Below, in pieces: positions 21,947-60,620 of a DNA stretch of 64,000 bases. The translations under genes were made by a program, and so were the position numbers. This stretch comes from Lophium mytilinum (Eukaryota; Ascomycota; Dothideomycetes; Mytilinidiales; Mytilinidiaceae), in contig MU004189.1 in assembly GCA_010093605.1 (NCBI GenBank), positions 113,582 to 177,581 on the forward strand. Reading direction: 5' to 3'. The stretch's first letter is position 1. Every line of letters starts with the position of its first letter. The notes below the pieces were generated by a model. That model was not told the DNA's origin and did no database searches. It saw only the letters and a program-made list of their open reading frames with translations.

Positions 21947-22929
21947 ACGCGTCGGCATCTCTGTTGCCGTCCTCATCCTACCCTCTGAAGCACCTCATCC
22001 CCTCATCATAATTGGCAAAACGTCTATCCAACACATAGGATACACTACATGCCTTCCTCCATTATGATATACTACATACCTTCCTCCATTATGGTGAACA
22101 AAGACCCAAACAGCTTCCGCTACCATGCGGCCAAGCAGGTGGAACGTGCAGCCCAAAACCGGACCGAAAGGACCCCTACAGAAGGACGGAAAAGTTTTTG
22201 GCATGATTGCCCCGGCTCGTACAGCTCCGCAGTTTCGGATTGCTACGTCTGAGGTGCTCAGCGCGTCCACAGGATGTGGAAAAGATATGGTTCTATCAAC
22301 ATTGGCCGCGGTTCGGCTGCCGTCTAGCTGCTGATTGGCTGGCGCTCCCTGGCATACAAAGGCTGGCGGTGGCGTACCCGTCTTTCATCAGTCAACAATC
22401 AACTCTAAATCAAAGTCATCCTGTGTTGTTTGTTTACTGCGTGAAGTCTGCCGTGATGCTGAACTGTATATTGCTGAATTGAGCCCAATTAATCACGGCA
22501 GGGCTATGCGAACGAGCTCCTCGGGCCTCAGCTGGGATGGGATCGATCGCCCCGCTGTCCCACGATGTGATTCGCGGTGGCTGGGTGGCGGATCCTCTTC
22601 CCAGCTGTTGTATAGGTAGGGCCCAAGACCTCATCAACACCGCAGCGCTGCCCGCCTTCATCATCACACCTCGCCGCCCGGCGCTTTCCATCTCTCGCGC
22701 GCGCGGTTTCGATTGCCAGCATAGCGAGCGATTCTCTGCATTCCTCTGTACCATATGACGGCCTGACGACGTGACGACTCTGCCTCGCGCGATACCCTTG
22801 CGCTACTGCTTTCTGGGAGCCACCGACTTTTGCGATCGACGATAAATCCAGCTCCATCGTTACACAACCAGCTCACCACACCTCGAGCGCCCCAAATACT
22901 GCCCCGACACCCCCGACTACAGCATCATC
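21947..22929. other. spacer upstream of giant gene
   Basis: The left quarter contains the orphan promoter/5'-end duplication (21964-22160). The rest has no recognisable gene. The last ~300 bases, GC-rich and then pyrimidine-rich, should hold the promoter and 5' UTR of the giant gene starting at 22930. Confidence 0.5.
21964..22252 (+). pseudogene. orphan duplicate of promoter and 5' end of the 6987 gene
   Basis: This segment repeats the presumed promoter, 5' UTR and first ~23 codons of the surface-protein gene at 6987. The ATG at 22091 opens a frame beginning MVNKDPNSFRYHAAKQVERA, against MVNKDPNRFRRHAPTKAELA in the full gene. After AAQNR the similarity ends, and the frame stops at 22252 after 53 residues with no membrane segment or Ser/Thr repeat. 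A 28-bp piece (GATACACTACATGCCTTCCT...) is tandemly duplicated just before the ATG in this copy only. It is most simply a truncated duplicate, though a very short expressed peptide cannot be excluded. Confidence 0.75.
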
Positions 22930-25900
22930 ATGTGGAGCAAGCTAACGGGCAAGAGCGAGAGCTCGTCCGCTAAAGACTCTAGAGAGTCGAAAGACGACCG
23001 CCCAAGCGCGCGCCGTCGACGCGCCGAGTCTATTGTTTCCTCATCCTCCGCACGGAGACCAACCCGCGGTGACCCCAGGAGCGCGCCGCCATCTTCACGT
23101 AATTCATACCCTCCTGCAGCTCCGGCATCAACTGCTTCCTCCTATGCGACGGCGCCAGAGCCCTCCCGCGCCTCAGACTACCTCCCCTACGACAACATGT
23201 CGGACCGCCCGCGTGCGTACGACGACCTCTACGATTACGATGCCAGACGATCTTCCAGTCGCCGTGATCGTTCCTCCAGCCACGACCGAAAGCGCGACAG
23301 GCGAGACCGCTCGCGGAGTCTCGACCGCGTCGACAGAAAGAAAGACAGAAAAGAAAAGGATAAGAAGACTGAGGGCTGGGTCCGGCCGAGCTCAAGCAAG
23401 AAGAGCAAGTCGGAACGTGGGAGTAGCCGTGCTGGAGATGAGGACCGCATCGTATCCTCGAGAGCTGGAGAGGATCCGCACACTGGTGGTTCATTCAGCA
23501 CTCAGGTTGCCAGCGCTGGCTTCTCTCAATTTCCTGGCCAAATTGGGGCTCCAATGATGACTGGAGCGCTCCCAACTCCGCCTGCTCAGCAGATATCCTC
23601 CCATGTTGCGGACCAATTCCCTGGTCAAAACCCATCCAACTTTGCTGCACCATATAGACCTCCTCCCGGCGCCGGTGCCGCCGCTGATTACTACGGCGAT
23701 CAAGGACAATCTGTCATGGACCAGCCTGGAGTCCGTCCGAACAAACCCTCTGTCATCATACCCGCCGATACACCTCACCTCAATGCTGCCTCTGCGACCT
23801 ACAATCCTCCAGAGGAGACAGGACTGGGATCCGCTGCCGACTTCTTCGGCTCTAGCACCGCAGCTTTCCAGGCATCGTCCTCGAGTCAGTCCGCAAAACC
23901 CACTAAACCTTCGAGGCCGACTATGCCTGGTAGTTTCGAGGACGATATGGCTCCCAGTAAGCCACCACGACCATCGGGTTCCAAGCCAAGCAGCTCTAGC
24001 AAACCGAGCAAGCCTGGCAAGGCATCATCCGCTGGCGCTCTTGCGGGTGGCGCGGCTCTAGGATATGCCCTCGGCCATGGATCTGGAAGTAATCACCAAT
24101 CATCATCTTACACCAACCAGCAACAATCAACCTCCTCTACTTTCTACCAACAAGGAACGAATGGATTCGTAGGTAGTGCTGGAGCCCTCTCTACAGCTGC
24201 GACCGATGGAAGCCACGGTCATTCTTATTCTACAGGTAACATACCTACCCAAGGCGGCTATGGCTCTGCCGGACCACCACCCAAGCCCCCACGACCAGGT
24301 AAGCAATCCTCCAACTCCCATTCTAACATGCCACTCTACGCAGCGGGGGCTGCTGGGTTGGCCGCAGGAGCGTATGGCCTACATCAACACTCGCAACATC
24401 AGCACTCGAATTCCATCCCGGGCGCGTTCCCTGGGGCTTCCGGAACCTATGGAGGCCCGACCCCGTCGCCTGGCCCGTATATGTCTGGAGACATGGCCAC
24501 GAGGCATCAGCACAAGGGCCCCGTGAGCAAGTTTGTGGACTGGTGGAAGGACTATGAAGATGTGCGCAAGATGGAGGAGTATACGGAGTACATAGGAGTC
24601 TGCCGAGAGTGCTTCGACCCACGTTCCTCAGTCCAAGATGCCCCTCGGAAACACAACTATAATCGGCGCCGACGATCTGGTGAACAACTACGCCCATCTG
24701 GTGGTATCAAGAAGGACTCCCGTTATTACCCCTCCGACAGCGAAAGCAAACGAAAGGGCAAGACTGGGCTTGTAGCCACTGGGCTCGGAGCATACGGTAT
24801 TGCCAAGGTCGGAAAAGCACTCTTCAATCGAAATAACGACTTCGACGACACCTACAGCATAAAGTTTGGCCGCGAGGGGCGAGGTTCGAGAACATCTCTA
24901 GGACGGAGCCGAAGCCGCTCTCGGGATCGAAAGACTAGTCTCTCCACTGGTGTGATACGCCACCGCAGTCGATCTAGGGACCGTGTCGAAATGGGATCAA
25001 CTCGCGAGGGCAAGCAATACAAGATTGTGCGCCATCGATCTCAATCTCGGTCTCCTTCGAGAGATCGCAAGACCGGACTCCTTGGAGCAGCGATTGGAGC
25101 GGCTGTTGGTGCATCTGCTGTCAGTCAAGCTCGGAAGAAGCATCGCAGTCGCTCGAACTCTCCCGAAGGACAGTTCGTTCGTCGTCGGAGACGCAGCAAC
25201 GAAAACGACCGGTACGCGAAGTCTTATCGTAGCTCGCGGAGCTCTGCTTCTGGATCCTTCGTCGATATCTCGCAAACGTCTCGTCCGCAAGCGAGTGGCT
25301 TCCTGGGTGGCTTTTTCGCAGCCCCCGAGAAGCGTGAGAAGAAGCAGAGGAAAGTCCACAGCAAGAAACGTAAGGGCTTCTTCAACTTTGGGAATTCATC
25401 TTCCTCGTCGTCCGACTCCGGCCTCGCCTTTGGCTTTGGTGTGGATCGGAGGCGAAAGAGCTCTTCAACAAAACGCCGGAACTCTGACGAAAAGCTGAAC
25501 GCTACTTTGCTTGGGCTCGGAGCTACTGCGGCTGCTATCACTGCCGCTCAGCATGGCCGTTCGAAGAATGGTAGACATGGCCCTGAAGTCGTCGCTGTAC
25601 GCCACTCAAAGGGTAAAGGCAAGGGTAAAGAGCGCGTCTATCGAGCAGGCCATTCGTCTCATTCTTCCAGCGAGGAGGACGAGGGCTGGGAGTCTGCCGA
25701 AGACGATGACCTCTCTGTCTCGTCGGGGGGAAGTTCCGGCCTGGCATTTGGCGACTTCAATTGGAAAGGCAAGAGCACTGAATCTTTGGTCTCTAACGAT
25801 TCGGGGACTAGCAAGTGGGGCTGGCGCTGGGGAAGAAAGAAACCTAAGAAACCGTCTATCACAAGCTTGAACGAAGCAGGTGCATCGGGGTCCTTCATCG

Positions 25901-28900
25901 GGCCTGCTGCAGCTGCTGGTATTGCCGGCGCTGTAGGAGGTGCAGCTCTTGGACGCAACGAGAGCGCCATGAGCAGCGTCAGTAGCGTACCGACTCTTCA
26001 GTCGGTATATCCCTGGCAGTCTCCCTCCGACCCCAATAGCTTTGACGCTGTCCGACGAACTGGATCTACACCATCGAACCAGGCACAACCTCTAGTCACT
26101 GCCCAGCCCGGCAGTATCAACCTTCAGCATCCTCAACCCGTGCCTCCTCACGTTCCGGATAACATTTACACTTCACAGGGACCGGTACAACAAAGCTATT
26201 ATGCTCCTACTGGCCCTGCGGTCTTCGCGTCTGCTGGTTCGCAATCTCCATACCCTAGCGCACAATACCAGCAAGGATTCGTTGAGTCCCCGAAGCCAAG
26301 CTTCTCGTCAACCTTCGAAGATCGACCTCCGCGTCTTCCTCGTCGCGGCAACTCATCGCCAACGTTAAGCTCCATGAAGCGCGATGCCACAATTGCAGGC
26401 GTGGCGGCCGGCATTGGTGCGGGCGCTGTCGCCGCCGGGATAGGGCTAAGCCGCCGCCAGAGCTCTCCCAGCAACAACGTACGATTCAACCTCACGGAAG
26501 ACCAGGCCGAGAAGGTTGACCGTGAGCGTCGAGAGGACCGAGAACGCCGCAAGGAGCGAAGTCGCAAGGACGATGAGGAGCTTAGGCGTCGCGAACAACA
26601 GCGCCGCGATGAAGAGGAGGTTAGGAGGAACGATATAGAGCGCATGGAGCTCCTTGAGGCTGAGAAGAAACGTGAAGAGCGAAGGCAACGCGAACGCGCC
26701 GAGAGAGAGGAGCGACGCGCGAGAGACCAGCGTGAAGCGGAGGAGCTCGAACAACGTTCTCGTGCCGCCCGTATGGAGGCTGATCGAAAGGCCGAACTGG
26801 AGCAACAGGCGAGGGAGCGACAGCAAGCTGAAGAATCAGAGCGTCGCGCGCGCGTCGAAGCCGAGAGGAAGGCCGAACTGGACCGCGAAACAGAACGCAT
26901 CCTCAAAGAACGAAGGCAATCAGCCATTGAAGCTGCCAGGCGAGAGGTCGCTGCCCGCGAAGAAGCAGAGCGGATGCAGAAGACGCATGACATGGCCAGA
27001 CTTACTAGGGAGCGACTGGAACGCGAAATTAATGAAGATCGCATTGCAGAGCAACGGGAACGAGACCGAGGCAGCTACAGAGGCGACGATATCAGCTCAG
27101 AAGTTCAACATCGAGAACAGGAACTCCAAGATCGTGAGCGAGACATCGTGAAGCCGGACACTTGGAAGAACGTCGCTGCTGGAGGCATCGCGGGGGCTAC
27201 GGTGGCGGCTGCTGCGGCAGCTATTACGAGTTCGGCAATCAATGACCGTAAAGACAAGCAGCCTGCTGTTCGACACGTGGAGCCGACTAAGCCTATCATT
27301 GATCTTGTAGATGAGGATATATTCGACCCGAACTTATTCAAAAAGAGCAAAGGGAGGAAGAACCGCAAACCAGAAAACCCGGTTGATCAGACTGCAGCAA
27401 CGTTTGATCATTTCATGGAAGATTTTGACGAGAAGTATAACACGAGGCCCGTATCGCCAGCAGAATTCTTCGCTCCGGACGAACTGCGCGATCATTCTGG
27501 AGCCCAGTCTCCTAGAATAGATCCTAATATGGGCGCTGATATTCATGTTTACCAAGCGCATGACCCAGAGCTCTCTGGCGTTCCCAGAGGACCCCCTTAC
27601 CCTCTCCCCTACGCTTTTACGGCATCCAGAGATGTCCCTGATTCGGCATACATGTCTTCTCCTTGGCCAGTTCCGGTGCTCAACCTCATCCAGCCAACTC
27701 CGCCTGGTTCTGTTATGGCGCCATCTGCACCTCCCTCTCCTGCCGTTGTGCCTCAAGACTCCACTCCTAAGGATGTGTATCAAGCTTCCACTAGGAGACA
27801 GTCCAAACCCTCCACCAAGGTCACCTGGGGCGAAGACCAACTCCACCACTATGAAGTCGAGACACCCGATTCTTATCGCGAAAGCTTCATCTCCGACCGC
27901 GATGCCAAGGATCACAAACCGAAGGCATCGGACTACGAAATTGTCGTCGAAGAAGACTCGCCAAAGTCAGGCAAACGACGGACCACGTACACGCCTGATC
28001 AACAGCGCTCATCAACGTCAGAAACTGATGACTCTAAGTCGAAGAAAAACAAGAAGTCTGAGAAGGTCTATGAGTCTCAGTCGCCAGTGCGAACGCCCGT
28101 TGTTGTTGAGCCTGAGGAAGATGCTCGACGGAATCATGACGTCTACCAGGCCCCCTTCTACGAGACGGTCTCCGATCTTAGTTCCCTGCCTGGGCACGGC
28201 TTTGTGGAGGGCGAGGTTGGCGAGGAGCCAGATCACAGCCAGAGGAGTGTCATGCCTGGTGGTTTCGACGACAAGCCATTCTACGGTCCGGAGCCACAAG
28301 AGAAGGTGGAAAAGGAGCCCGAGTGGGAACCCCCTCTTAGCAAAAAGGAGAAGAAGAAGCGGGAGAAGGATGCCAAGCGACAGAGCATTGAGTCGAGCAC
28401 TCCTCCCCCGGAAGCTCCGCAAGCTCCAGTCCAGGCAGAGCCAGCTTGGGAACCGCCGCTCAGCAAGAAAGAACAAAAGAAGCGTGAGAAGGAGGCTAAA
28501 CGACAGAGTATGGAGTCGAGCCCTGTCCCTGAAATTCCATCGCCTGTTATCAAGGAAGAGCCACCAGCTGAGTTCGAGTTCACCAAGAGCAAAAAGGACA
28601 AGAAGAAAGACAAGAAATCGAAGAACGGTAGCCGAGATGAGAGTCCTACCATCGCCGGAGCTGAGGAATCAAGATCAGACCCAATCGACGAATGGGATAC
28701 TCCAAAATCTTCGAAGAAAGACAAGAAAGGTCGAGCTTCGAGTGTAGATCAAGATCCCAGGGACATTGAGCCTTCTGTTCCTGAGGAAGAGTACCGAAAG
28801 TTCCAGGCTTTGAAGAACCCGCCTTACGAAGGTGACGAACGCAGTACCTCCAAGCCCAACAGTAGTCATGTTCCTGCAGCCGTTGCCGCCGGTGGCTTTG

Positions 28901-31900
28901 CCGCTATCGCTGCCGCTGCCGCGAAACATGAGCGAGATACCAAAGCTTCCGAGCCGACTAGTTCCAGGGACGCTTACTCGTCTGAAACACCTTCGTCTCA
29001 AACGCCTTCGTCTCATTACGTACCCGGCGGATTCTCTGCTGAGCCTGAAGAAGCCAGCTACACCCCTCAAAATGGTAATCGCCGAGTTTCGCAACCTGAA
29101 CCTGAACGAGTCATCCCGAGCACAGCATTCTACGATGTCGAGGAGCTAGTAGATGCCAAGACGCCCAAAAAGAAGGAGAAGAGGCGCAGCGGCCGTTTCA
29201 GCTCTCCGACCCCATCTTCGCCTTTGAGGACTGAGCTCGGGTATGATGACGATTATATGAGCGCAAAACCACACACCGAAATCCCTAAACAGCCCGTTCA
29301 GGAGCCGACGTATGCCGCAGGTGTTCCCTTACCGGAAGCTTCTTTCGATGAGCTCGATGATTTGAGGTCGACACATTCAAACAAGAGCACACCATCTAAG
29401 CGTGACGCCGCTTTGGACGATTTTGATGGATCTGAAAAGTCGAAGTCGAAGAAGACGGATCGATATGTCCCGGCGAGTAATGGCACACAGGATGTTATCT
29501 CTGATGCGCCCTACGACGCGTACGATGTCAAGAAGTCGAGACACCGCAGTGAGAGCGCTGCCAGCCGAGACACTTATGCCTACGAACGGGATCACGAAGA
29601 CCGCCACCGCGATCTTTCCACGGCGAGATCGGAAGATCACGACGACAAGAAAGGCTCTAAGCATCGGCGAAGCACCAGCGAGAAGTATGATGATGATACT
29701 CGTTCTGTTGGCTCCGATGGTCGTTCGACCTACGATGACGATGGCGAGCGCAAGAAGCGGCATCACAGGCACCGAGAGAGCGAAAGGGACGACGATACAA
29801 GATCAGTGGCCTCGGAGGATCGATACGATGAGAACGGCGAGCGGAAGAAGAGGCATCATCGCAGGAGGGATAGCGAGAAAGATGATGACACCAGGTCTAT
29901 TGTCTCAGAAGACCGCTATGACGAGAACGGCGAGCGCAAGAAGCGGCACCATAGGCGACGAGAAAGCGAGAGAGACGACGACGATACTCGCTCTATTGTT
30001 TCAGAGGATCGCTACGATGAAAATGGTGAGCGCAAAAAGCGACATCATAGGCGACACCATAGCGAAAATGGATCTCCGGAAGGATATGCACGATCTACTG
30101 CAGCCTCGGAGCCTGGGGACCTGTACGACCGTGATCGTAAGTCTTCGAGACATCGATCAAAGCGAGACAGTGACATCTTTGATGATACTGCTTCCATCGC
30201 CTCTTCGCCAGCCCGGTACGACGAGCCGACGAGTAGGTCGTCAAAAGAGAAGGAGAAGAAATCAGGGGGCTTATTCGGGCTTTTTGGAAGCCGGGGCAAG
30301 TCCACTGAAAGCTTGGTAGACACTAGCAGCAAGTCCAAATCCAAGGACGAGTTTGAAGACCCGGACAGGAAGCATAGAAAGAAGAAGCACCGCGGGTCTG
30401 CCTATGGCTCCGATGACGACGATGCCCGCTCTACTGTATCCAGCGATCGACGGGATAAACGTAGAAGCAGAGATGAGACAGGTATGGACACCCGACACCA
30501 AACAAAGGTACATGACCCGCTCTGTCAAACCCCTGACGCCCCATCTGACGATGAACGAATGCTAAACGGTTCCAAGGAACATAATCTTACAGAATCTAGC
30601 AGAGACCGACCGAGTGAAGTACTAGAAGACTACAACAAGAAGTCTTTTTTAGGCGAGCGGGCGGTGGTGGAAGCTCCACTGCCCGTTAATGAATCCGAAC
30701 ACTTTGGACAACAATCCCGATCCGAAGACGAGGCCACCGCAATGAAGCTTCCTGGTGACCTCCCCGAATATCCCCTTCCTACTCTTCCTGATAGCCGTCC
30801 TACCTCGCCTCTGCATGTGGACACAGCTCGCTCGATTGAACGCCCGACTACCCCAGTCGAGGAGAATCGTGCTCTTCTAGAAAGACTTACTGGCCTCTCT
30901 AGCGAGCATTTACAGGCCTACGCCAACAGCGAACTACCTGCACTTCCTGTGTCAAGGCCCAATTCTCCATATGGAATGGACAGGTCTCCTGAGCAGATTG
31001 CCTCTCCTCGCTTTTCCCAGCGTGCGCAGTCTACCACCGCGATCCCCCTTCGATTCCGTCGCCCTCCCCCTTCGCCCGGAACCACGCGCGACTTAACCAT
31101 CAAAACACCCTCATCTTCTACCCCTACTTCCTCGCCTTTAGCTCCACGCTTAAGACACACCAAGTCATCTTCGACCGAGTTCAAAGGATCAACCGACTAC
31201 AGACCGCTATACCTCGTGGAAAGCAACCGCAAGGCCCCCGAGATCGAGGAGACCCTGCCATCTCTTCCCTCCAGCCGCACCACTTCAAGGGCTGCGTCAG
31301 AGCGTGGTACTGAGGATGAATACCAGTCGGCTCTCGAATCACCACATCTCAGTGGAACAGATACTGAGGATCCATTTACGAGCCCTGATCAATATCATGA
31401 TATGCCTGCCGAGGATGACTTCTTGGGATCGCAGCAGACGACTCCGAAAGCAACCACGTTTGCTCCGGGTGTTATGGAGTTGCCGAGAGAAAGTGATGCC
31501 GCCAAGGAGTCTGATGCTACCAGGAAACTTGATACACCTGCTGCTAGGGAAGTTGATACAGCTGATACTAGAGAACCTGATATCGATGCTGCTAGAGAAC
31601 TTGATATAGCTGCTGCCAGGGAACTTCCCCGAAGCAGGACCCCTAGTCCTCATCGCGAGTCCAGCTCCTCCAACACCCTCAAGGATGCAGCAACCGCAGC
31701 GCTCATTGGCGGTGCAGCAGCTTACCTTGGCCATGAAGCACTTTCCAAAGGCTACGATTCCGACTTCATGGGCGGCGAACCAGACGAAGAGGATCTCGAC
31801 CTCGCTCCCAAAGCCGCACCCGTCGAAGAAACTCCAGTCCCCGAAACCCCTTCTCGCCCTACCCACTCTCGGACCACTAGCGCTACTTCAGCTAAGAAGA

Positions 31901-34900
31901 GCAAGAAAGGCAAGAAAGGTTCTAAGCGTGGCAGCAAGGACATCTCTGAGCAGCCAGGCTCACCTAAAGAGCTCACTGAGGAAGAACAGCGCCAGATCCG
32001 CGAGCGTGACGCTATGGATGCCGTAGACGGCTGGTTCGAAGAGCCGGCTAAGAGCAGCGAGATTTCAGAAGAGCCTTCAGAGATTGATGCATCTGCCTCT
32101 GATGCTAAGAAGGGGACCCCGCCTCCATCCCCGAAAGCCGAGCCTGACCCGGCATTGTTCAGGCGGGATACGCCGAAGGGGAAGAAGGGCAAGAAACAGG
32201 GAAAGAAAGGCAAAGGGAGCCGCTCAAACACGCTGGAGAGCCCTATCGAGGACGTAACCAAGGCTCCTGGAGATGAGGATGCAACGCCCGTTGAGCCATC
32301 TATCCCGGAGCACGAGGAAATTATCCAGCCAGTGATGTCCGAGGAGAAGATTGAGGAGGCCCCAGTTCCGGAGCTAGAGGCACCCAAAGATCTCGAGCCG
32401 ACTGCGGAATCTATGGACTATGTAACGCTGCCGCGAGCCTACAGCCCTGCGTTCAGCATCCCCGTACAGTCTGAAGACCTCGCCGCATTTCCTGCTGCTC
32501 TTGGAAGATCTGGCTCCCCATCCATAGCAGATCTCGAAAGCAAGGCAAACAAGGCAGCAGAGCCTAAGCCTGAGCTTGAGTTTATAGCCATCGCGAAGAA
32601 GCTCAAGGGCAAGGGTAAGCACAGTCGCAAGTCAAGTCGCGTGGAAGATGGCCAACCATCACCATCCCTTGATAGCGGTCTATCTTCTGGGCTGTCGACG
32701 CCCAGGGAGGTCTTAGGTAGTGCGGAGCGGTCCGAGGGTCTTGAGAGGGACCTTTCAGCGCCTCAAGATATATCTCCTGAAACGATTCCGCTACCTGAAG
32801 CCGATGATGGCCTGCTCGAAGATGTCACTGAGCTACCCGCGCCTGTCGAGGAGAAACCTGAAGAAGTCGACCCACTCTCCGCCCCCGTACTGGAAGAGGC
32901 AGTCGATCAGCGCCCCGTAGAACCCCAACCAGCGCCGGAACCTACATCTCCAGAGGATGGCAAATTTGCCATGACCACTCCCTCGAAGAAGTCAAAGAAG
33001 AAGGGAAAGAAGGACAAGAAGGCTAAGAATGACGATCTCGGCGAATCATCGACTGAACTTCCTACGGCCGTGCCTGTCGAAGAGCAGACGAGGGAACTTG
33101 AACTACTCCCCGCATCCGAACCAACCGTCGAGCCCACATCTCTACCTATAGAAGATCAAGTAGCGCCGGAACCTACGCCGCGAGAGGAAGACGAGATCGC
33201 CTGGACGGCTCCTGGGAAAAAGTCAAAGAAGAAGGGAAAGAAAGCTAAGAACGACAACATAGGTGAACCCGCCACCGAACTTCCCACGCCTGTGGTGTCT
33301 GCCGAAGACCAGGCAAGGGAACCTGATCTTCCCTCTGCTCCCGAACCAGCAATCGAAGCCGACCAACTGCTCACAGAAGATCATCCAGCGCCTGAACCTA
33401 CACCACAAGAGGAAGATGCATTCGCCTGGACAGCTCCCGCCAAGAAGTCGAAGAAGAATGGCAAGAAAGCCCAGAACGATGACCTGGGCGAACCCGCTAC
33501 TGAGCCTCCCGCACTCGTCGAAGGCCAGACAAAGGAGGTCGATATACCCTCCGTCCCCGAGCCAGAACCCCAGTCGCTTCCCGTGGAAGACGAAGCGGTG
33601 CCGGAGCTTTCCCAGCCCGAGGACGACTCAGCGTGGGCAGCTCCCTCCAAGAAGTCAAAGAAGACGGGAAAGAAGGACAAGAAAGTCAGCATCAGTGAAC
33701 TTACTCGAGCAGCAAGCCCTGAACCTGAGTATCCCCGTGAAGCAACTACATTCGATCCGGACTTGCCCACGCCTTCGCCCTCGGCGGAGATGATGGAAGC
33801 CGTGCTTGCCTCGGGCGAGGTACCAGATGCGGCCATGGCGACTGCGATGGGTGTTGACGATGGATTACTAGCAACACCTAGTCTTGAGCAAACCGAAGTC
33901 GAACCCACTTTCGAGACTCGCGATCAAGAGCAGGAACAACCAATTGTTACTCACCAACCTCAACTTGAGCATCCTAACATGGAATCTACACCCTCGGTCC
34001 CAGAACCTTCACCCTCGATTCCAGATCCTGCACCCTCAGTCCCAGAACCTGCAGTAAAACAACCGCGAGAGGAAAAGCAGTCGGAGCCAGAGCCGGAGCC
34101 CGAGGAGCCGCAGTCGCTGACAAGCAACATTCTGAGTGTCTTTGGGTGGGGCAAGAAGAAGGCGAAGAAGAGCGATACGAGCTCTGCCCCTATAAGCCCG
34201 GTTCCGAAGCCGAAGAAGGAGGTGCTTGAACCGCTTCCTGCGTCTGAGGCCTTGGATGCCAAGCGCGATCTACTTGTTGCTAGTGCTGTCGAGGCTCCGG
34301 CTGCGGTTGTTGAAGCGAAGTCTAAGCCCATTGTCAAGGGAGTGAAGGCGCTGGAGGAACCGGAGAATTCGAAGGTGCTGGAGCCATTCCCCGCGTCGGA
34401 GATCGTCGACGACAAGCGCGATCTGCCTGTCTCCGATGCTGTTGAAGCTTCGGCTGCTGATACAAAGCCTGAGCTTCCTGTTGAANNNNNNNNNNNNNNN
34501 NNNNNNNNNNNNNNNNNNNNNNNNNNNNNNNNNNNNNNNNNNNNNNNNNNNNNNNNNNNNNNNNNNNNNNNNNNNNNNNNNNNNNNNNNNGCTGCTGATA
34601 CAAAGCCTGAGCTTCCTGTTGAACAAGTCAAGGAGCTTGCGGAGTCGGAGACTTTGGAACTGCCGAAGGAGGTGCTAGAGCAGGAAGTTCAGCTTGAAGA
34701 CCAGCCGGTCGTCGAAGAGCAACCACAAGCTCCTGCCGAGGATGAATGGGCTTTCCCCATCAAGGCAAAGAAGGGTAAGAAGGGCAAAGGAAAGAAAACT
34801 GAGGAAGTCGAGCAGCTTGTGCGAGAGGAGCCTACGCCCACGGTCGAAGAACCTTCGCCGCCACTAGAAGAGACACCAGTAGTCGAAGATCAAGCGCAAA

Positions 34901-40900: not shown

Positions 40901-43900
40901 TTCCGACCACAAAGAAAGGCAAGAAGGGAAAGAGAGGAAAACAAGTATCAGTCCCAAACACTCCACCTGTCATTGAAGAACCCCAACCCGCCCAGGAGCC
41001 TTCTAATATCATCCCGGAAACCGAAAGATCTGAGCCTTTAACTGTTGCGGAGCCCACAGAAGTCCCACAGGAAGAAGAATCGGTGGACCTCTTTACAACC
41101 ACTAAGAAGGGCAAGAAGGGTAAGAAAGGAAGACAAGCATCCGTTCCCAGTACTCCATCTGCGTTAGAACCGCTTGAACTTCTCGAGGAGCCAGCCAGAT
41201 CTGTTCCGGACCTCCAAAGCTCTGAGCCACTAGAGATAGTTGAATCGGCAGAAACCAATGTCCAGGAAACTCCGAAGGACGAGGAGCCGCTTGACTTTTT
41301 CAACGCGAAGAAAAAAGGCAAAAAGGGCAAGAAGGGACGGCAAGCTTCTGTCCCTAGTACTCCTGTCAATGAGGAGGAGCGCGAGCTGCCAGTTGATGAG
41401 TCTTTTAAGCCAATGGAAGAATTTTTTTCAAGAGCAGTTATTGGCCAGGAAAGCCACGATGCCACCGAGCAAGCAGCTACCAATGATGAAGCCGATGCAC
41501 CTGACGTTGTGGTAGAAGAGTCATCCCGACAAGCTCAGGACCACCACGACAACGCTGCTGTTCCTATTTTCCAGTCATCGTTAGAAGCGCCAACGCCTGC
41601 CGACGAGTTCTCTGAACCCGTCAAGGACACGGAAGACTCGTTCGCTCAAGTAAGCACAAAGAAAGACAAGAAGGGAAAGAAGGGAAAGAAGGGAAACCGA
41701 CTTTCCCTTTCTAGCCCTATAGTCATTCCAGAAGGACCACAGTCTGAAACTCAGAAACCCATGCCTGAAGCCTCCGGAGTTCATGCCATCGACTTCGGTA
41801 CATCTTCTCCAAATGTCCCCAGGGAAATTCCGATCGACGATATGACCACTAAGCCTGAAGGCGACAAGAAGAAGTTGGGGATACCCATGTTCACATCACC
41901 GCAGCCAATGGATGCCCAGGATCTTAGCCCCGAGACACCGGAGCCAGAACCATCCGTCGAGGAAGAATTCAGCGCGCCGAAGAGTAAGAAGGACAGAAAG
42001 AAGGAGAAACGGAAGGGCAAATCTTCTGATGTTACAGAGCCATGCGCAGAGCCTGAAGCGTTAGCATCGCGAGATCTCGAAGATGCTACTAAACATTCGG
42101 AGCCTGAAACTCTTTCCTCTGCTACTTATGCCCCGATCGAAGATAGTTCGTCTACCTCATTCCCTGCCGAACAAGAAACTCCTCTCGAGACTCCTTTTAG
42201 CGACGCCAACGAAGATTTTGCTACTCCCACTGAGAGTCAAACAAGGGATTTTTCTGCGCCTGCGGTCGAATTACCCGAACTCGATCAGCCACACAGTTCT
42301 CCACCCCATCCGAGTCTTGGGCGTGAAGCAGCATATGAACCCCACCATACGGAGCATCTAGAGACTCCAGGTACCGAAACCGATGACTTTGCTACACCAG
42401 CTGAAACGGCCACCGAATGGGCTGTGCCAAGTATCCCTGAGCCAATTGCGGAACATGAGGGCGAGACTAGGAATATGCCTCCAAAGATTGAATCCGCTGA
42501 GTCCACCCCGCTTGAACAATTTAAAGCTAAGAAAAGCAAGAAGGACAAAAAGAAGGGCAAGCAGGGTAAAGGATCCTCTCTCGATTGGTCAGAGCCTACA
42601 GGATTTGGCGGCCCTGAAACTTCAGCTGTCGAAGCAGAATCTTCGAATCGTGATCTAGCGCCAGAGGCCATACCCAAGGATCCGACAAAAGAACCCGAAA
42701 CTAACGTTTTGGGAGATGACTATCAGCGAGAGGTCCCGGTATCACAGGAATTTCAAGATGACCGGGCTTTGCCCGAAGCCCCCCAGGAATCCGCCGAACC
42801 CGAAGTCGAGCCGTCCTTCAGCCTCAAAAAGGGCGAGAAGGAGAAACGCAAGTCAAAGAAAGGAATAGCTACTCCGGTTGAATCTTTCGAGCAAGCAGAG
42901 GCTTCTACAGTCTTTGCGGATGAACCGCTAGTTATTGATCATCCTTCCGAAACTCTGGCGGAGAGAAGCATTGATGAGCCGGAGGATAAGCTACAAGAAG
43001 TCACAGAGCCTATGATTGCCGAGCTTCAAGCTGAGCAAGAGCTGAATCCCGAGGATGAGTTCCCTGCCTTCACGACTACTTCCAAGAAGAGCAAAAAAGA
43101 GAAACGAAAGTCGAAGAAAGGAACGTCCACTCCTGTTGAAACTTTTGAACAAGCGGAACCATCTATTGCCTTTGAGGACAAAGCACCAACTGTGGAGCCT
43201 CCCTTCGAAGGGTCGGCTGACAGGAGCGTTGATGAAGTGGAGACTAAACTGGAGGACGTGTCAACTCCCATGGACGTGGAGCCCCAAGCTGTACAGGAGC
43301 CAAATGCCGAAGACGAATTCCCTACTTTCACGACTACTTCTAAGAAAAGTAAAAAGGAGAAACGCAACTCAAAGAGAGGACTATCCACCCCAGTCGAAGT
43401 TGAACAAGCCGGACCATCTACTACTGCTACGGGTGAGCCATCAATAATCGAGCTTTCCTTCGAAGATCCGGCGGACAAGAGCGTTGATGAACCGACAGAC
43501 AAGAGCGTCCAGGAGCCGGAAGACAAGAGCGTAGAAGAGCCGGAAAACAAGAGCGTAGAGGAGCCGGAAGACAAGATACAAGATGTTCCGGGGCCTAACG
43601 TTGAGCACCAAGCTCAGCAGGAGCCGGTCCTCGAGGACGAGTTTCCGACTTTCATGACCTCTAAGGAGCGCAAGAAGGATAAGAAAAAGTCTAAGAAAGG
43701 AGTTTCTACGCCGACCGAGTTTGCCGAGGAAGCAGAACCTTCCACTTTAGTCCAAGATGAACCGTCCAATCTCGAGTTGCCTCCTGAGGTTATAGCCGGT
43801 AGGGATGTTGGTGAGGTAGGAGATAACTCACTGGACATCTCAGAACCGACGAACGTTGGACTTCCGGCCGAACCAGAACCCAATCCGGATGAGGAGTTCC

Positions 43901-46900
43901 CTGCCTTTACGACGGCTAAGAAGAGCAGAAAAGATAAAAAGAAGTCTAGGAAAGGGGTGTCTACTCCGATCGAGCCTCTCGAGCCAGCAGAAGCTTCCAC
44001 CCGGCCCCAAGATGAACCTTTCAGTTTCGAGCTGCCTTCTGAGGATGTAGCTAAAGAGAATCTACATGACGTCTCCGAGTCTATGGACTTAAAACCTCCA
44101 CCCGAATCAGCGACAACCCCGGATGAGGAGTTCCCTGCCTTCACGTCTACTAAAAAGAGCAAGAAGGATAGAAAGAACTCTAAGAAGGGGGCATCAACTC
44201 CGATCGAGCCCGTCGAGCAAACAGAATCTTCCATTCTACTCCAAGACGAACCATCCAATTTCGAGCTACCTTCTGAGGTTGTAGCTACAGGCAATCTGCA
44301 GGACGTCTCCGAGCCTATAGGCGTCGAACCCTTGGCTGAATCAGCGCCGAATCCAGATGAGGAGTTCCCTGCCTTCACGTCCAACAAGAAGAGTAAGAAG
44401 GAGAAGCGAAAGTCTAGAAAGGGAACCGACACCCCTATCTTCGAACCAGAAGAACCTTCCACCTTAGTCGAGGAAGCCCAAGGCCCCATAATTGAGCCTT
44501 CCATCGAACCAGTGAGTGACAGGGCTATCGATGAGTCCGAAACCAATCCTCAACAACCCGGGGAACCCCAAGAAACTGCACTGCCAGATACGCGAGAAGA
44601 GCCTGTCGAGGAGGAACCCTTCGCTTTTGCAACGAGGAAGAGCAAGAAGGAAAAGCGAAACTCTAAGAAGGGCGTAGCAACTCCCGTCTCCGAGCCGGAA
44701 GAAATCTCTACATTAGCCGAGAAACCCCAAGCCGCCATCGAAAGCTCTCATATCGAAACGGAAGCTGACAGGGCTATTGATGAGACTCAAACTATCTCAC
44801 AAGAACCCTTAGCGCCTCTAGAGACTATCTTGCCAGATACGCAAGATGAACTCGACGAGGAACCTTTCACCGTTGCGGCAAAGAGGAGCAAAAAGGAATG
44901 GAGAAAGTCTAAGAAGGGCGCAGCAACTCCCGTTGAGGAAATCGAGGCTGCTCAGCCAAGTACTTCGCCTCCTGAGCCTGAGGCCGAATCCAGCTTCGCC
45001 AATACACGGGATGAGACAAGTGCTAAGGACGAACATGCCCCTGAACAAGCCGTTTTTCCCGAAGAGCCTACCGATTTGCCTGTTCTTGAAGAGGAAACCA
45101 CTCTATCCTCCATGAAAAGGAGCAAGAAAGAGAAACGGAAGGGAAAGAAGGGCACAGCGACGCCGATATCGGAACCAGAATTGATTCCTGAAGCAAATAC
45201 TGACCCGTCAAGAGGAGATGCCGAGCAAGCTGACGAATGGACTCAACCAACGGTGGAGCAGCCACAACTTCCTGAGCCTTTAAGTGTTCCGTTACCCGAA
45301 GACATCGGCCGCGATCTTGGCGATAAGCTTGCAATCCCGGAGCCCAGTAGTCAACCCGAAACGCCTTTCCCAAAAGCCACAGACCCATCATTCGACCATT
45401 TCTTCGAACAACCTCCTCATCACAGATTTGAGGGTTACTCCGAGGAACCAGCGGTTGTACAATCAGTTCCTACTCTGGGCGATTCAGCACTCTTCTTACC
45501 CGCCGAGGACTTCGCTGACAAAAAGCGCCCGACGATCAAGGAACATACTCAAGAACCTACTACGAGCCGACGCTCCGAGTCTCCAAGTACAGATATTGAT
45601 TTCGCAGCAACTGTTGCGGCAGGCTTGGAAGACTCTGGCTTCGATCCCAGACTTGTTCTAGGGGACGCATCATTCCACAGGAAATCATCACCTCCGCCCG
45701 TGGCCGGCGAGGCTGACCCCGAAGAAGATGTGGCTACGTCCAGGAACAAGGGCAAGAAAGGAAAGAAAGCCAAAGTGAGCCGAACTCCATCTGTCGACCG
45801 AATCTCCGCTTCCGACGAAGTCGTAGAATCGTCAAGGGATCTTCATGCAGCCTCAGAATCTCAGTCGATGGCTGAAGATAGATACCAGGCACCACAAACT
45901 CTCGGTGAGCGTGGTTCGGAGTTTGACCCCAATCTTGTTATGAACGATCCCCTCTTTTCTCGACGCCAGACCCCTCCAGGCACACTGGAAGAGGCAGATC
46001 CTGATGAACTCTATCCTGTCCAACAGAAAGGCAAAAAGGGGAAGAAGGGCAAGAAGGCGCAGGCCTCGGTCCCTGAACCGCCTCTCGAGTCCGATTTCAC
46101 AACTCCACTTGAAAGCGAGCAGCCAACCGCTCCAGAAGCCTCGGCGGATACTACGCGCGAGATCATTGAGTCAGAGCCAACACAGCCTGTGGAAGCAGAA
46201 GACTTTGGGTACTTCACGAGCAAGAAAAAGGGCAAGAAAGGAAAGAAAGGACAAGCCTCTGTTCCAGAGACCCCTCTCGATTCCGGTATCACAACTCCAC
46301 TTGAGATGGACCAGCAACCCGCGCTAGCAGCTTCTACAAGCATTACACGGGACCTCCCCGAGCCACATACAGCCCAGCCTGCTGAGACCGAAGACTTCGG
46401 GTACTTCACAAGCAAGAAGAAGGGTAAGAAGGGCGGCAAAGATAAGAAACGTGCTTCCGTGACTCAAGAAAGCGAATCAAGGGCTGTCGAGGACCCGACG
46501 GTTGAGGCTCCCACGGATGTGCCTTCCGTTGTTGAGACTCCAGCTTTTGAGACCCCCGCTTTCGAGTCTGCACAAGAAACGCCAAACTTCGAGACCCCGG
46601 CTTTTGAGACTCCTGGGTTTGTGACCCCGGGCAAGGAAATGGAACCTTTGGAAGAACGAACTGTACAAGACTCGGGGGAGGTGGCAGCTGAAAAGGATAA
46701 CGATGACTGGAACCCCGAACCCAAAAAGAAGGGAAAGAAGGGTAAATCCAAGCTCTCAAAAGCAGCTGAATCGACATATTCCGAGGAGCCGCAGTCTTCG
46801 CAGGCTGTCGATCAAGATACCACATTCACTCCCGAGGCATCATCAGGAACTCAACCTGCCGAGGATTTGACACCTATCGAGCTATCGAAGGAAGTATCCG

Positions 46901-49900
46901 ATCTTGCGACACCATCGGAAGAGAAGCAAGAGTTCGACTTTACCAGCAAGAAGAAAGGAAAGAAGGGCAAGAAACAGCGTGGACAAAGCTATGACGAGGT
47001 TGCACAAGAGCCTCGTAATGAGAAGCCTACCGAAGGTTCATCAACTGAAGACCGATTGCGCTCCGTGGCTGCGGGTACTGCGGCCTTGGGAATTTTAGGT
47101 CGTGAAATTTTGGAAAGTGCGAAGTCTAAGGATCAAGATGAAAAGGTCGTGGAAAAGGAGGAGGATGCATGGGAACCACAGCCAAAGAAGAAAGGCAAGA
47201 AAGGAAAGAATGGAACGAAAGAGGACGTGGAGGAAACGGCAAGATCACAGCCAGCAGAGATACCCGAGTGGGAAACCACAAGGGAAGAGGTCGTGGATAC
47301 TGCACAAGAGATGCCAGTCGAGAAAGTACAGGTTGTCGAATCCAAGCAAGAGGTTGAGGAAGATGAGGAGTGGGGCGCGGTATCTACAAAGAAGGGCAAG
47401 AAAGGAAAGAAAGGCCGGAAGAACAGCCACCCCGTTCCAAGCCAATCGACGGCTGATGATCTGCCGGTGCCCGAGTCGTCAGCGATCCGGGTCGGCCAGC
47501 ATCTCGTCGAAGACAATACGCCAAGGAGTGTCCTACCAGAAACAGATCACACGCAAGAAGAGGAGGACACGCGAGAGGATCCACCCGTAGGCAAGCTTAA
47601 GAATGTATTCCCAGGAGTGGAAAGAATCAAACGGAGGGCACCTTCATTCCCTGTATCCGAGAAACAGCCAGAGGAGAAGCGTGTCCACCTCCCGGAATTG
47701 GCATCAGAAATCCTGGAAAGCTCAGAAAAGCCGAAGTTCGAGGTTCCAGCTGGGGAGACTCTCATCTCGCAAGAGTTAGCAGCGGAGACCACCCCACGAG
47801 ACACCCACCTCAGGGTAGACCCGAAAGAGCAATCTACCTTGACCAAATCTGCGAGTGCGCAGAGCCTGGCTGCTGTTCTAGAACCAACGTGGTCGTTCCC
47901 CCCAAATCGCGATAGTGCGGTGCATGTTTCCGATTCTCCACTTCTTCCGCCATCTCCATCATTCCATAGTGCGACCAGGGACAGCGGCTACCATGACACC
48001 CAGAGCCCTGTGATCCGCCAGGGCCACGACGCTTCCACTGAGAAATCTAGTTTGGCGCGAGAACTCCCTCAAGACACGCAGCCCCAGGATCAATACCTGG
48101 AGGCTCGCACAGACAAGCCAATGGAGAATGCTCGGGATGCCTCCGATTCCCAGGCTTCTGCGTATCCAAGCACAGCCACCAGCTCTTCCGACCCCCTCCG
48201 AGTCTCTGTAGAAGCTGGTTCCGACTGGGACGTGTCGGTAGCAAACGCCCGCTCTTCCGAGCGAAGCGGCGTGACTGCAACTGGAACAAATGACATGGAG
48301 TCTTCACGCGAATTAACAGGCCGGTCAAGAAGCCCGTCTCTGCCAGATATGGAGGACACTGGAGGTATGCTATCCTCTCCCTCCCCAGTTGATCCTGCAT
48401 CCAAAGAGCGCACATCGGTTTTGTTTCAGTCCTCGCCATTAGTTCGTGACTTGCTCGATCAACTTGCTGAGTCACCATCTACAGAGCGCGCTCGAAGCCG
48501 CCATCTCTCGGCGAGCCCATCTCCCACGCCAACGAGAGGACCTCGGACTAGACACGTGGAAGAACGAACGACCACAAGCCATTCAGACTCTCCTAGCCTG
48601 CAACCACCGGAGACTGTCCGATCTCTTTTCGGCGACCCAGCCGCGAGCAGAGAAGCTGGTAGCTCTCACAAATCAGTCGAGTCTCCGGCAACACCGCAGT
48701 ACTCAACTCCTTCGAATAACGTCTCGTCAATTGCCGCTCAGCTCCACACAATCACAGAGAATAGTCCCGATGATTCTCCTCTCAGCAAGAAGAGCCGCGC
48801 TATTCACGATGTCGGCGCCCCAGATCGAGGAGTCAAGTCAGCTAGACGTTCTGGAACTCCAAAGTCATTCCACGAACGCCTGAAGTCTCCACCTCCTGAT
48901 GCTGCCCCAAAGACGCCACTGAGTAGAGGACACCAAGCACCGAAAACTCCTCACTCCACGGACGACCCACTGTCGCGACTACCATGGCCATCTGTGGACG
49001 CAGAAAACGATGCCATCGATCGAGGCATGACACTCAGCCCAGCACGACGCCTGCCCCACGACCAGCGTTCACCACCTGTCAATGTTGACCCCACGAAGCG
49101 TCGGCCTAGTGGCACACTCTCACCGAGCGTTCCAAGTGACCGTTCAGGCGGCGACCGCTCGGCAGGCAGCATCACTCGATTCAAGACACCCGACCATCTG
49201 CGGCCTCACAGCGCAGCCAGCAACCGGTCAGCCACTCCGCCATTGCGACGAGTGGATCGTCAGGTGTCGGGTGACCTGCGGGCGGCATCGCGGCTTGGCG
49301 GGGTCCATGCGTTGGGCGCTAAAATCCCGTCACCACAACAATCAGACGTCTCCATCCCCGGACCGTCAACATACGACCCGCGCAAGGACAAGGGCAAAGC
49401 CCGCGCCCGAGACATGGACGATGTCTACGTAAGTTGTTTATTCCATTATTGATGCATTCTCGATGATCAGAGATGGCTAACGCTTGTCACAGGAGGCTTG
49501 GGGCGAGGCGCAAGGGTCGCCACTGTCTCCCACGCGACCGCCCAGCGTGCGCAAACGTCAAAGCATGCACATCATGGACCTTCAATCACGCGTCGAACAG
49601 CTCGCAGGGGAGAACCGTTCTCTTCAAGATGCGAGAGCCCAAGCCGAGGAAGAAATCCAGGCCGCCCAGTATCAGCGCCAGGTCGACACTCAAGTTATGA
49701 CCGAGGCTGTCGAAGCACGTGACCGCTCGATTCGCGAGAAGGACATCGAGATTGCGCAGATCCAGGACACCCTTCGCGCATTGCAGCAAGAGGTCTCCCG
49801 ACTCACTGAAGCACACGGCAGTCTCACCGCAACCAACAAGAACCTCATCGACGACACCAATTCCCGCTTCGCACAGCTCCAAAGCGAAGGCCAGCTGGTG

Positions 49901-51118
49901 CACGATCAATGGCAACAGTCTTCCCGAGAGCTCGAAGAGGCGCGCGCACAGCATGCCCAACTCAGCTCTGGCATGGAGGATGTCGTGCGCCATGAAATCG
50001 CACTCGCCCTAGATGACCGCAACGCAGAAATCTCGCGTCTCAACGAAGAGTTGAATACTGCTAGGGAGCAGATCCGGAGCTTGCAACGACAAATTCTTGC
50101 CTCAAAGCAAGGCGACAGCTTCCTCGTTGTTCGGGACGAGGACTACTTCGACAGCGCATGCCAAAAACTCTGCCAACACGTGCAGCAATGGGTGCTGAGA
50201 TTCTCAAAGTTCTCCGATCAGAAACACTGCAAGCTGTCCTCCGAGCTTAATAACGAAAAGATCGAAACTCGACTCGACAATGCTATTCTGGATGGCTCCG
50301 ACGTTGACATGCTGCTTGCAGACCGTGTCAAGCGCCGCGATGTGTTCATGTCGGTCGTCATGACTATGATCTGGGAGTACGTGTTCACGCGTTACTTGTT
50401 CGGCATGGACCGTGAACAGCGCCAGAAACTTAAATCACTAGAAAAGACTTTGAATGAAGTTGGTAAGTTTTTGCGGTCACACGTTTCAACGTAGTGCCCA
50501 TCTAATACGTTCTTAGGTCCTACTCGAGCAGTGGCTCAATGGCGTGCGATTACGCTCACGCTGCTTGCTAAACGAGATGCATTCCAGCAGCAGCGTGGCC
50601 AAGATACTGAAGCAGTCGTTCAGGAAATATTCGGCACGCTCGCGTCGCTACTTCCACCTCCATCACATCTTCAGTCACAGATCCAGGAGTCTCTACGCAA
50701 CGTAATGCGCCTGGCTGTAGAGCTTTCCATTGAGATGCGAACCCAGAGGGCGGAGTACATCATGCTACCGCCACTTCAACCAGAGTACGACACGAACGGA
50801 GATCTCGTGGCCAAAGTCACCTTCAACGCATCGCTCATGAACGAGCGGAGCGGCGAAATCAAATCAAACGACGATCTCGAGGCACGCGGAGCAGTCGTCA
50901 AAATTGTCCTATTCCCATTGGTGGTGAAGAAGGGAGATGATTACGGAGAAGGCGAGGACGAGATTGTGGTCTGTCCTGCGCAGGTGTTGGTAGCGAAGCC
51001 TGCGACGAACAAGAAGGTCGTGAGGGTAATGAGCGGTGCAATGGATATTGACAGTCGGCATAGCCGGTCGGCGCAGAGCTTGGTTCCGGAAAGCATGGAT
51101 ACTAGTAATTTCGTATAG
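22930..51118 (+). CDS. giant leashin-like (LAH) Woronin-body tether, involucrin-repeat protein
   Basis: Three exons (22930-49428, 49493-50462, 50517-51118) give about 9,356 aa; exon 1 alone is 26.5 kb without a stop. Introns are 64 and 54 bp. The N-terminal ~600 residues are Ser/Pro/Gly-rich. They are followed by a conserved-looking block FVDWWKDYEDVRKMEEYTEY-IGVCRECFDPRSS at about 535-567, typical of fungal proteins annotated as involucrin repeat protein. A charged Arg/Glu coiled coil spans ~1197-1415. Then come thousands of residues of acidic linker alternating with Lys-rich SKKxKKGKKGK units. Exons 2-3 encode a coiled coil (~8865-9020) and a globular end. In Neurospora and Aspergillus, leashin tethers Woronin bodies to the cortex and septal pore. 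The assignment here is inferred from size, layout and remembered motifs. A 105-base run of N lies inside, so the true length is uncertain. Confidence 0.8.
26517..27175 (+). other. charged Arg/Glu coiled-coil segment of the giant gene
   Basis: About 220 codons rich in Arg, Glu, Gln and Lys, with strings such as RREQQRRDEEEVRRNDIERM and alanine/leucine at heptad-like spacing. They would form a long single helix or coiled coil. The segment is flanked on both sides by Gly/Ala-rich hydrophobic stretches (about 26390-26450 and 27175-27240). Confidence 0.7.
29689..30069 (+). repeat. tandem DDTRS-SEDRYDENGERKKRHHRR coding repeat
   Basis: Four imperfect units of about 90-96 bp. Each encodes an acidic part (DDDTRSxxSEDRYDENGE) followed by a basic part (RKKRHHRRRESE). 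Amino acids are more conserved than third codon positions, so the units are old enough to have diverged silently. They lie in the giant leashin-like gene. Confidence 0.85.
31485..31632 (+). repeat. short tandem ARE-DxA coding repeat
   Basis: Degenerate 24-30 bp units encode ESDAAKESDATRKLDTPAAR and then REVDTADTREPDIDAAREL. They have the form (A/T)RE(L/P/V)D(I/T). They lie in exon 1 of the giant gene just before a Gly/Ala-rich hydrophobic stretch (about 31690-31745). Confidence 0.7.
32960..36750 (+). repeat. Lys-rich module array I (DEWAxPxSKKDKKGKKGKGKKS)
   Basis: About a dozen modules of 60-110 codons. Each has an acidic Glu/Pro-rich linker ending DEWA or similar, followed by a Lys block such as SKKDKKGKKGKGKKSAPESP. 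Adjacent modules resemble each other more than modules of later arrays, which suggests local unequal exchange. The assembly gap at 34486-34590 falls within this array. Confidence 0.85.
34453..34623. other. assembly gap (105 N) flanked by identical 33-bp repeats
   Basis: Bases 34486-34590 are N. The 33 bases before the gap (34453-34485, starting GCTGCTGATACAAAGCCTGA) are identical to the 33 bases after it (34591-34623). The gap therefore lies within a tandem repeat that the assembly could not resolve. The gap length is a multiple of three and keeps the frame open, but the true size may differ. Confidence 0.97.
36991..37458 (+). repeat. tandem REQEPSEIPLPVDEP coding repeat
   Basis: Seven units of about 54-69 bp encode (L/S)DDREQEPSEIPLPVDEPASS-like sequence with small variations. 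One unit is shortened (DETLDHREQEPSEIPL). This array is free of the Lys blocks that punctuate the rest of the giant protein. Confidence 0.88.
38860..41400 (+). repeat. Lys-rich module array II (TSKKKGKKGKKGRQASVPSTPP)
   Basis: About a dozen modules of 60-100 codons, each with a core like TSKKKGKKGKKGRQASVPST followed by PPVxEEPE and an acidic linker. The core carries an invariant-looking SVPSTP, a possible proline-directed phosphorylation site beside the basic block. A sub-repeat of EPTEAEP/VEHAEPE type lies at about 39680-39750 and 40010-40110. Because Lys/Glu/Pro codons give few antisense stops, this array produces a spurious minus-strand frame of 586 codons. Confidence 0.85.
42830..45170 (+). 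repeat. Lys-rich module array III (EFPAFTTTSKKSKKEKRKSKKGTSTP)
   Basis: About nine modules of 75-110 codons with a core like DEEFPAFTTTSKKSKKEKRK followed by SKKGTSTPVE. This is a third dialect of the Lys block, in which KEKRKSKKG replaces KGKKGKKG. At 43475-43575 a nested 30-bp repeat encodes DKSVQEPEDKSVEEPENKSV. Confidence 0.85.
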
Positions 51119-59664: not shown

Positions 59665-60620
59665 ATGGCAATCCAATGTACAGCTGTCGATGCGTTCGCC
59701 CTGACAGAAAGCCGAGCTCTCGCCGCCTGCTTTGCACTTTTCCTTTTGGCCTATCTGCCTTTGATCGCCGCCGCTTTGATCGCTGCCTTCAGGACTCCGA
59801 AGAAGCTCATATTCCTTGTTGCAGCACTAGCAATGGTGTTCTATTGGCTGTAAGTTCCTCACTTCTTTGCCACTGTTTGAGCTGGCCCAGCAGGCTTAGC
59901 TGATTTGTTAATTAACAACGCTGCAGTTCGAATGTGCTGAAGATACTCGCTCTCGTTCGTGCCGAATGCATTCTTAGCCCCCTTTGGAAGTCAGTGGTTG
60001 CGGCCGTCGTTCTCGCCACTATCGCAGACGCCTTGCTTCTCGCCATCATGCTGTTGCATCTCCCCCGAGCATTAGGTCGGATCCAGAAGAACTCCATGAT
60101 GATCATCCCAGGGATCACGTTCTTCATCATTTGCGGACTCCTCATCGCGTGGGCTGTCTTATTCGCCACCAACTTCTACAGAACCTCGTACTACAACGGC
60201 GGCACCGCCATGGAAACCATCAGGAGCTTCACCGTCTTCTTGGCCGCACGCAGGCTGGGCGTAGCTACCTACATCCTCTATCAGGCCGCCGTAATCATAG
60301 CCGTCGGGCTCTGTGTCTACAACCTCATCAGGAATCCGTCGGCCTCGACAACTTCCGGTGCTGTTATTGTCCTTGTCACCTTAATCAGCCTTCTGATGGT
60401 ATTATGGCCTGCACTGAGAGCTATGCAGATCATGATGTTGCCTTCCGAAATACTCATGGCCCCGAGGACGAACATCGCCACCACCACCGCCATTGCTACT
60501 GCTGGTGTTATTGGTACCGATTTCGTCCTTCTGGAGTACTTCACGCAAGCGGCGCAGTATCTGGCACTCGTCTTTCTGCTCCTCGTCGCCAACCGCGCAC
60601 CTAAGCAGGAGTCGGAGTGA
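59665..60620 (+). CDS. seven-helix integral membrane protein, unknown function
   Basis: Two exons (59665-59849, 59927-60620; intron 77 bp, donor GTAAGT, acceptor GCTGCAG) encode about 292 aa. Splicing joins VFYWL to SNVLKILALV inside a helix. Seven hydrophobic segments are visible at about 20-42, 48-75, 82-106, 117-140, 165-188, 197-219 and 235-275. The short N-terminus would be outside and the tail (NRAPKQESE) inside. The layout recalls fungal families of small seven-helix proteins, but I see no motif that fixes it to RTA1, Pth11 or a GPCR class. No signal peptide or long loop is present. The function is not known. It is the last intact gene before the RIP-affected tract. Confidence 0.75.

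Follow-up and report, generated by a model that had tools for sequence, protein, structure and literature searches.

Leashins, the closest described relatives of the gene examined here, are giant fungal proteins for which tethering, targeting to the pore rim and YakA-dependent phosphorylation of Lah have been established in other species. In Neurospora, the N-terminus binds Woronin bodies via WSC. According to Ng et al. (PMC2690989), the leashin middles are acidic, P/E/L/S-rich and repetitive, and predicted leashins outside Neurospora ranged from 5,936 (Aspergillus nidulans) to 7,480 residues (Gibberella zeae) in their 2009 survey. Within the last 1000 residues of Aspergillus fumigatus Lah, a coil occupies 509-686 and a membrane segment 761-781, leaving a tail of 219, and a VV pair in the membrane segment is required for pore targeting (Leonhardt et al., PMC5345055). 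We analyzed a 64,000-nucleotide stretch of the Lophium mytilinum genome (contig MU004189.1, positions 113,582 to 177,581; hereafter the window) and found a gene that, by its anatomy, is very likely a leashin, most likely a new and long member of this known family.

Gene model and C-terminal anatomy

A frame on the + strand stays free of stops from 22846 to 49452 (8,868 residues), the longest such frame in the window, and thus contains the open stretch from 22930 to 49428 that an earlier sequence-only reading of this DNA had reported. From the first ATG at 22930, the leashin-like model runs through two short introns to a stop at 51116-51118, giving a spliced product of 9,356 residues with a predicted mass of 1,020 kDa (35 undetermined residues left out), an isoelectric point of 4.9 and a net charge of -482. 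The parts of the model are as follows.

22930..49428, + strand: exon 1, 8,833 codons, 35 of them N
24538..24603, + strand: N-terminal DWWKDYEDVRKMEEYTEYIGVC motif, residues 537-558
49429..49492, + strand: intron 1, GTAAGT ... CTAAC ... CAG, 64 nt
49493..50462, + strand: exon 2, coiled coil at about residues 8850-9040 and hydrophobic segment from residue 9117
50463..50516, + strand: intron 2, GTAAGT ... CTAAT ... TAG, 54 nt
50517..51118, + strand: exon 3, remainder of the C-terminal domain and the stop

Both introns had been proposed in the sequence-only reading, and their GTAAGT donors, branch-like CTAAC and CTAAT motifs and CAG and TAG acceptors agree with that proposal; its figure of about 9,356 codons likewise matches the model as printed, with the exact length subject to an assembly gap discussed below. 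In the interval that separates the leashin start from a CSTF2-like gene, two near-identical 27-bp tandem units occupy 22039-22093.

Given the base composition of exon 1, some 354 stops would be expected in its 8,833 codons (log10 P of zero = -157), which rules out a long frame by chance; the five alternative frames hold 161, 579, 216, 178 and 359 stops. Codon use, with the reference taken from eight other open reading frames within the window, lends slight support to coding, the exon 1 frame ranking top of six in 153 of 175 segments of 300 bases by small margins. Most of the segments favouring another frame (19 of 22) begin before 31.5 kb. Non-coding islands within exon 1 were considered as their cause and tentatively rejected; these 22 of 175 exceptions are largely R/K/S-rich when judged by eye.

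At the C-terminal end, the coil of the window protein begins about 504 and ends about 320 residues before the C-terminus (limits set by eye), inside the longest proline-free stretch (8851-9157), and its heptad score was reached by none of 500 shuffles, confirming as a heptad signal the coiled coil that had been noticed previously. The hydrophobic segment starts 240 residues before the C-terminus (residue 9117) and, if 21 residues long, would leave a tail of 219. This layout is near that of A. fumigatus Lah, in which a coil, a hydrophobic segment containing a VV pair and a ~219-residue tail lie at similar distances from the C-terminus, membrane insertion here being putative and the coil ends placed by eye. 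The adjacent VV falls at 9121-9122 and may correspond to V5303/V5304 of Lah. The two proteins differ in size, as Lah has ~5.5 k residues (inferred from the position of V5303) compared with 9,356 here.

The earlier description of the gene as leashin-like is supported by this C-terminal geometry, by the acidic, P/E/L/S-rich repeat middle (41.6% P+E+L+S in the core of this giant, strongly negative protein) and by HEX1-like and Mpv17/WSC-family genes, with which the Woronin body set is present in the genome (its WSC-like member judged by eye). The HEX1-like frame of 381 residues (L013:2831-3976, - strand) has both IF5A domains above cut-off and a C-terminal SRL; it also carries a long N-terminal extension. 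Four Mpv17/PMP22-family matches were found in the genome, one of them WSC-like by eye, a gene on C18 that we take to resemble WSC. The N-terminal DWWKDYEDVRKMEEYTEYIGVC motif presumably resembles that of other fungal leashins. A query around it (24400-25400) matched a single place in the genome, and a second full leashin was rejected on that result. Four conserved peptides were not found in the texts of the literature searched.

Repeat middle, chain size and the proposed leash

Two sets of motifs stand out in the middle of the protein.

28042..47430, + strand: 54 lysine clusters, the first at residue 1705 and the last at residue 8154, with a median spacing of 84 residues and gaps of several hundred
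30775..31275, + strand: three LPxLPxS motifs at residues 2616-2782, which resemble part of the R1 core of Neurospora

A recurring module of the form acidic-aromatic / KKGKKGK / S-T-P is seen in residues 1705-8154. A W or F stands at most 9 residues before the lysine cluster in 46 of 54 cases (12.0 at random places in the same region), an acidic patch precedes it in 51 (25.7 at random places) and in 36 there is an S/T-P no more than 12 residues after it (12.6), with all three together at 31 of the 54 clusters. Local charge segregation is high (variance 7.0 versus 3.4). The DYRK consensus is RPx[S/T]P, and RPx[ST]P occurs seven times in the whole protein compared with 1.0 in shuffles.

The LPxLPxS motif is found three times against 0.03 in block shuffles, and the Neurospora R1 core contains LLPALPES (PMC2690989). 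This likeness carries little weight because LAH-1 has no homology to Lah proteins according to Leonhardt et al. (PMC5345055), a statement that also counts against the overall explanation given below. The N. crassa LAH-1/LAH-2 locus is similar in being giant (~30 kb), acidic and P/E/L/S-rich, with an R1 core near LPxLPxS; its R2/R3 consensus is PEEVELPASP, and a lysine-cluster module is not described for it in the passages cited here. Ng et al. compared the leashin middle to the PEVK segment of titin (PMC2690989); P, E, V and K make up 43.8% of the core of the window protein, and repeats would act as a spring in both, a functional analogy at most and no homology.

With 9,356 predicted residues, the protein lies above the range of the 2009 survey. 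The sequence-only reading had called it unusually long, although the 5,000-6,000 residues that it gave for other leashins were slightly low against 5,936-7,480. On the titin scale of Ng et al., 9,356 residues correspond to ~255 nm versus 162-204 nm for that range, and a generic coil formula gives ~119 nm versus 91-104 nm. The suggestion that length sets how far Woronin bodies are held has a precedent in Ng et al. (PMC2690989), but the generic coil is just 1.1 to 1.3 times the size of one of 7,480 to 5,936 residues, so that length would be a poor measure of distance unless the chain were stretched out.

The best overall explanation, in which we have considerable confidence, is an unsplit leashin of the Lah type with an N-terminal holder, a C-terminus at the pore rim and an elastic, tunable middle. 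The N-terminal part would hold the Woronin body, the C-terminal coil-membrane-tail module would be located at the rim of the septal pore, and the long middle, presumably disordered, would serve as an elastic leash. Lysine clusters and acidic linkers may form weak, reversible self-contacts, and S/T-P phosphorylation may tune them, with a DYRK/Yak1-type kinase as a candidate. In iron-limited A. fumigatus, both the phosphopeptides of Lah and the localisation of LahC depend on YakA, a DYRK kinase, and in Zymoseptoria adenosine triphosphate is required for keeping pores open; from the YakA-dependent phosphorylation and the energy-dependent open pores we infer, by analogy, a phospho-tuned leash (further literature drawn on: PMC5656841, PMC11166925, PMC10023807, PMC5309816, PMC5658179, PMC10197012).

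Several observations weigh against this explanation. In Pfam, exons 1 and 3 had no match and exon 2 had coil-type matches below threshold only, sequence searches of the PDB with the C-terminus gave nothing, and no relatives were confirmed in viral or prokaryote contigs. The C-terminal hydrophobic segment has a modest hydropathy (mean 1.19), the seventh highest in the protein; six G/A-rich stretches in residues 614-1998 (window 24769-28923) are more hydrophobic. Since the repeats share descent, the motif counts are not independent. Sequence charge decoration in the core is +771 (shuffles 793, standard deviation 16), a strongly positive value by which net acidity dominates and an expanded chain is favoured. 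Only three of the seven RPx[ST]P sites (4929, 5001 and 5077) come after a lysine cluster, and a basic residue with S/T-P is found less often than the shuffle mean (49 versus 64). In the passages cited, the effect of YakA on Lah is not shown as direct phosphorylation. Exon 1 also contains an assembly gap.

Assembly gap and number of transcripts

The gap interrupts an exon that the sequence-only reading had called uninterrupted, a description that fails at this place.

34486..34590: assembly gap of 105 Ns, codons 3853-3887 of exon 1, with identical 33 bp on both flanks

The 33-bp copies are the last bases of the left flank and the first bases of the right flank, 138 bp apart, and the gap is likely an unresolved tandem repeat or a pair of overlapping contig ends. 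The exon 1 frame is kept both at the printed spacing (9,356 codons) and with the two 33-bp copies merged (9,310 codons), and other gap lengths, including longer arrays, may also be possible. It is rather probable that this is a single leashin whose printed length is wrong from assembly, with an error of at least tens of residues at the 34.5-kb gap, and this would be compatible with an unsplit Lah-type protein. While the 105 Ns between identical flanks point in that direction, the other tandem arrays of exon 1 match at 73-91%, save one 29-bp array at 100%, which makes repeat collapse outside the gap less likely.

Whether one transcript covers the gene bears on a different alternative, a Neurospora-like split into two proteins, the N-terminal one binding Woronin bodies and the C-terminal one belonging to the pore, via an internal promoter and an alternative end. 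Such a split is compatible with a continuous reading frame, and the Neurospora locus was likewise annotated as one giant frame (10,821 residues) that proved to be two transcription units encoding proteins of ~400 and 450 kDa (PMC2690989). The N. crassa locus differs from the window gene in these two units and in its numerous introns, which are alternatively spliced: of seven introns newly found there, six were in frame with the predicted exons, and the LAH-1 end is produced by splicing of intron 10 (PMC2690989). We scanned exon 1 for introns of 42-130 nt, in multiples of three, that combine a GTRNGT donor with a YAG acceptor and a branch-like YTRAY. One in-frame candidate was found compared with 1.07 in codon shuffles (strong ones: 0 versus 0.4), and GTANGT donors numbered 3 against 5.9 expected (range 0-13). 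The scan pattern fits both introns of the window gene and would miss the GTAGGC-donor intron of a C5 gene described below. Hidden in-frame introns were rejected with signals at chance level, unusual donors lying outside the reach of the scan, and exon 1 looks like one exon, subject to transcripts. These chance-level signals argue against a split when set beside the intron 10 splicing that ends Neurospora LAH-1, as does a single module type spanning residues 1705-8154, though some of its gaps reach several hundred residues. Ng et al. also assign the split to the Neurospora/Sordaria lineage (PMC2690989). We consider a split gene improbable, and on the window's sequence the unsplit Lah type is more likely than the Neurospora type. 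Because the 10,821-residue model turned out to be two genes, a single tether of 9.4 k residues requires transcript proof.

Relatives of the anchor domain elsewhere in the genome

With exon 2 as query, the same genome yielded one further place (C5:1795850-1796326, 66% identical), which falls within the first of two genes related to the leashin C-terminal domain.

G000:C5:1794786-1797279 (L003:437-2930): chimera, open three-exon model of 794 residues with exons at L003 437-662, 716-1981 and 2038-2930
G000:C2:2342250-2343467 (L031:3751-4968): distant relative, a small coiled-coil gene with 32% identity to the leashin C-terminal domain

Judged by eye, the distant relative has an intron in a comparable location. 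In the chimera, a HET domain is followed by the leashin C-terminal module and an Eisosome1 segment. Its HET domain (PF06985) scores 57.2 bits against a cut-off of 22.5 with the spliced N-terminus, the unspliced pieces falling slightly under, and its nearest relative among the genome matches listed is at C9:493851-494363 (65% identical). The leashin module shows identities of 105/152 and 106/161, with an intron that agrees with leashin intron 2 in location and phase (by eye), and the Eisosome1 segment matches at E 5.5e-30. Directly upstream of the chimera, the same strand carries another HET gene (L011:4318-6914, G000:C5).

The two copied parts appear to differ in age. Over 305 codons, protein identity between chimera and leashin (68%) exceeds DNA identity (65%), the proportion of synonymous differences is saturated (pS 0.80) and the nonsynonymous rate (dN) is 0.24; on these figures the leashin module is an old copy that purifying selection has preserved in one lineage or more. 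The Eisosome1 part matches its C4 parent in 391 of 424 columns (92% DNA identity), with 17 of the 33 differences being C to T in the copy; its frame stops early compared with the parent, and the family match there crosses three stops. By this comparison the Eisosome1 part is young and perhaps recent debris, a possibility that makes a three-part design less plausible. The genome has a large incompatibility repertoire (at least 152 HET matches, with 150 of 274 candidates scored), and among so many HET genes a single chimera may have arisen by accident.

A HET domain is able to set off cell death, and for fungal NOD-like receptors (NLRs) integrated decoys have been proposed. The chimera shares its HET domain with other PF06985 proteins and adds the leashin C-terminal domain, at a place outside the window. 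If its parts act together, it could direct HET-driven death to septal pores, and a failing compartment would then be sealed and killed at once; alternatively, it may bear bait copies of pore and eisosome proteins attacked by pathogens or non-self factors, as in the integrated decoys of plant NLRs. That the septal-pore anchor of leashin was copied into a HET cell-death protein for pore-sited death or as bait, in combination with a kinase-tuned leash spring, is a tentative and rather doubtful proposal. In the titles, abstract openings and passages of the literature searched, no HET-leashin fusion is reported; one paper mentions leashin and incompatibility together, in passing. The anchor domain in two more genes, one close and one distant, is no proof of tethering alone and would suit a giant cortical or septal protein that shares only this domain and tethers no Woronin body, but we regard this as very unlikely, as the size, the acidic repeat middle and the coil-membrane-tail spacing match leashin and the N-terminal query matched the window gene alone.

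Elsewhere in the window, an 800-residue frame with many imperfect repeats of 15 to 123 bp lies at 6912-9314, with a 419-residue frame on the opposite strand; neither has a Pfam match above cut-off. Toward the end (60001-64000), G+C drops to 0.42 and then to 0.26, forming an AT-rich block that is perhaps a repeat mutated by repeat-induced point mutation.

For the unsplit Lah-type leashin favoured here, the module grammar of the middle, and likewise the HET-anchor chimera, are points that specialists may not expect. How a tether keeps Woronin bodies close to the pore yet outside it is unsolved, and a repeat unit with a frequent S/T-P beside a charge cluster is a countable site for testing the kinase link. 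If functional, the HET-Lah-Eisosome gene would link septal sealing with fungal cell-death immunity. A single leashin above the surveyed range, if true, would allow a comparison among species of tether length and the distance of Woronin bodies.

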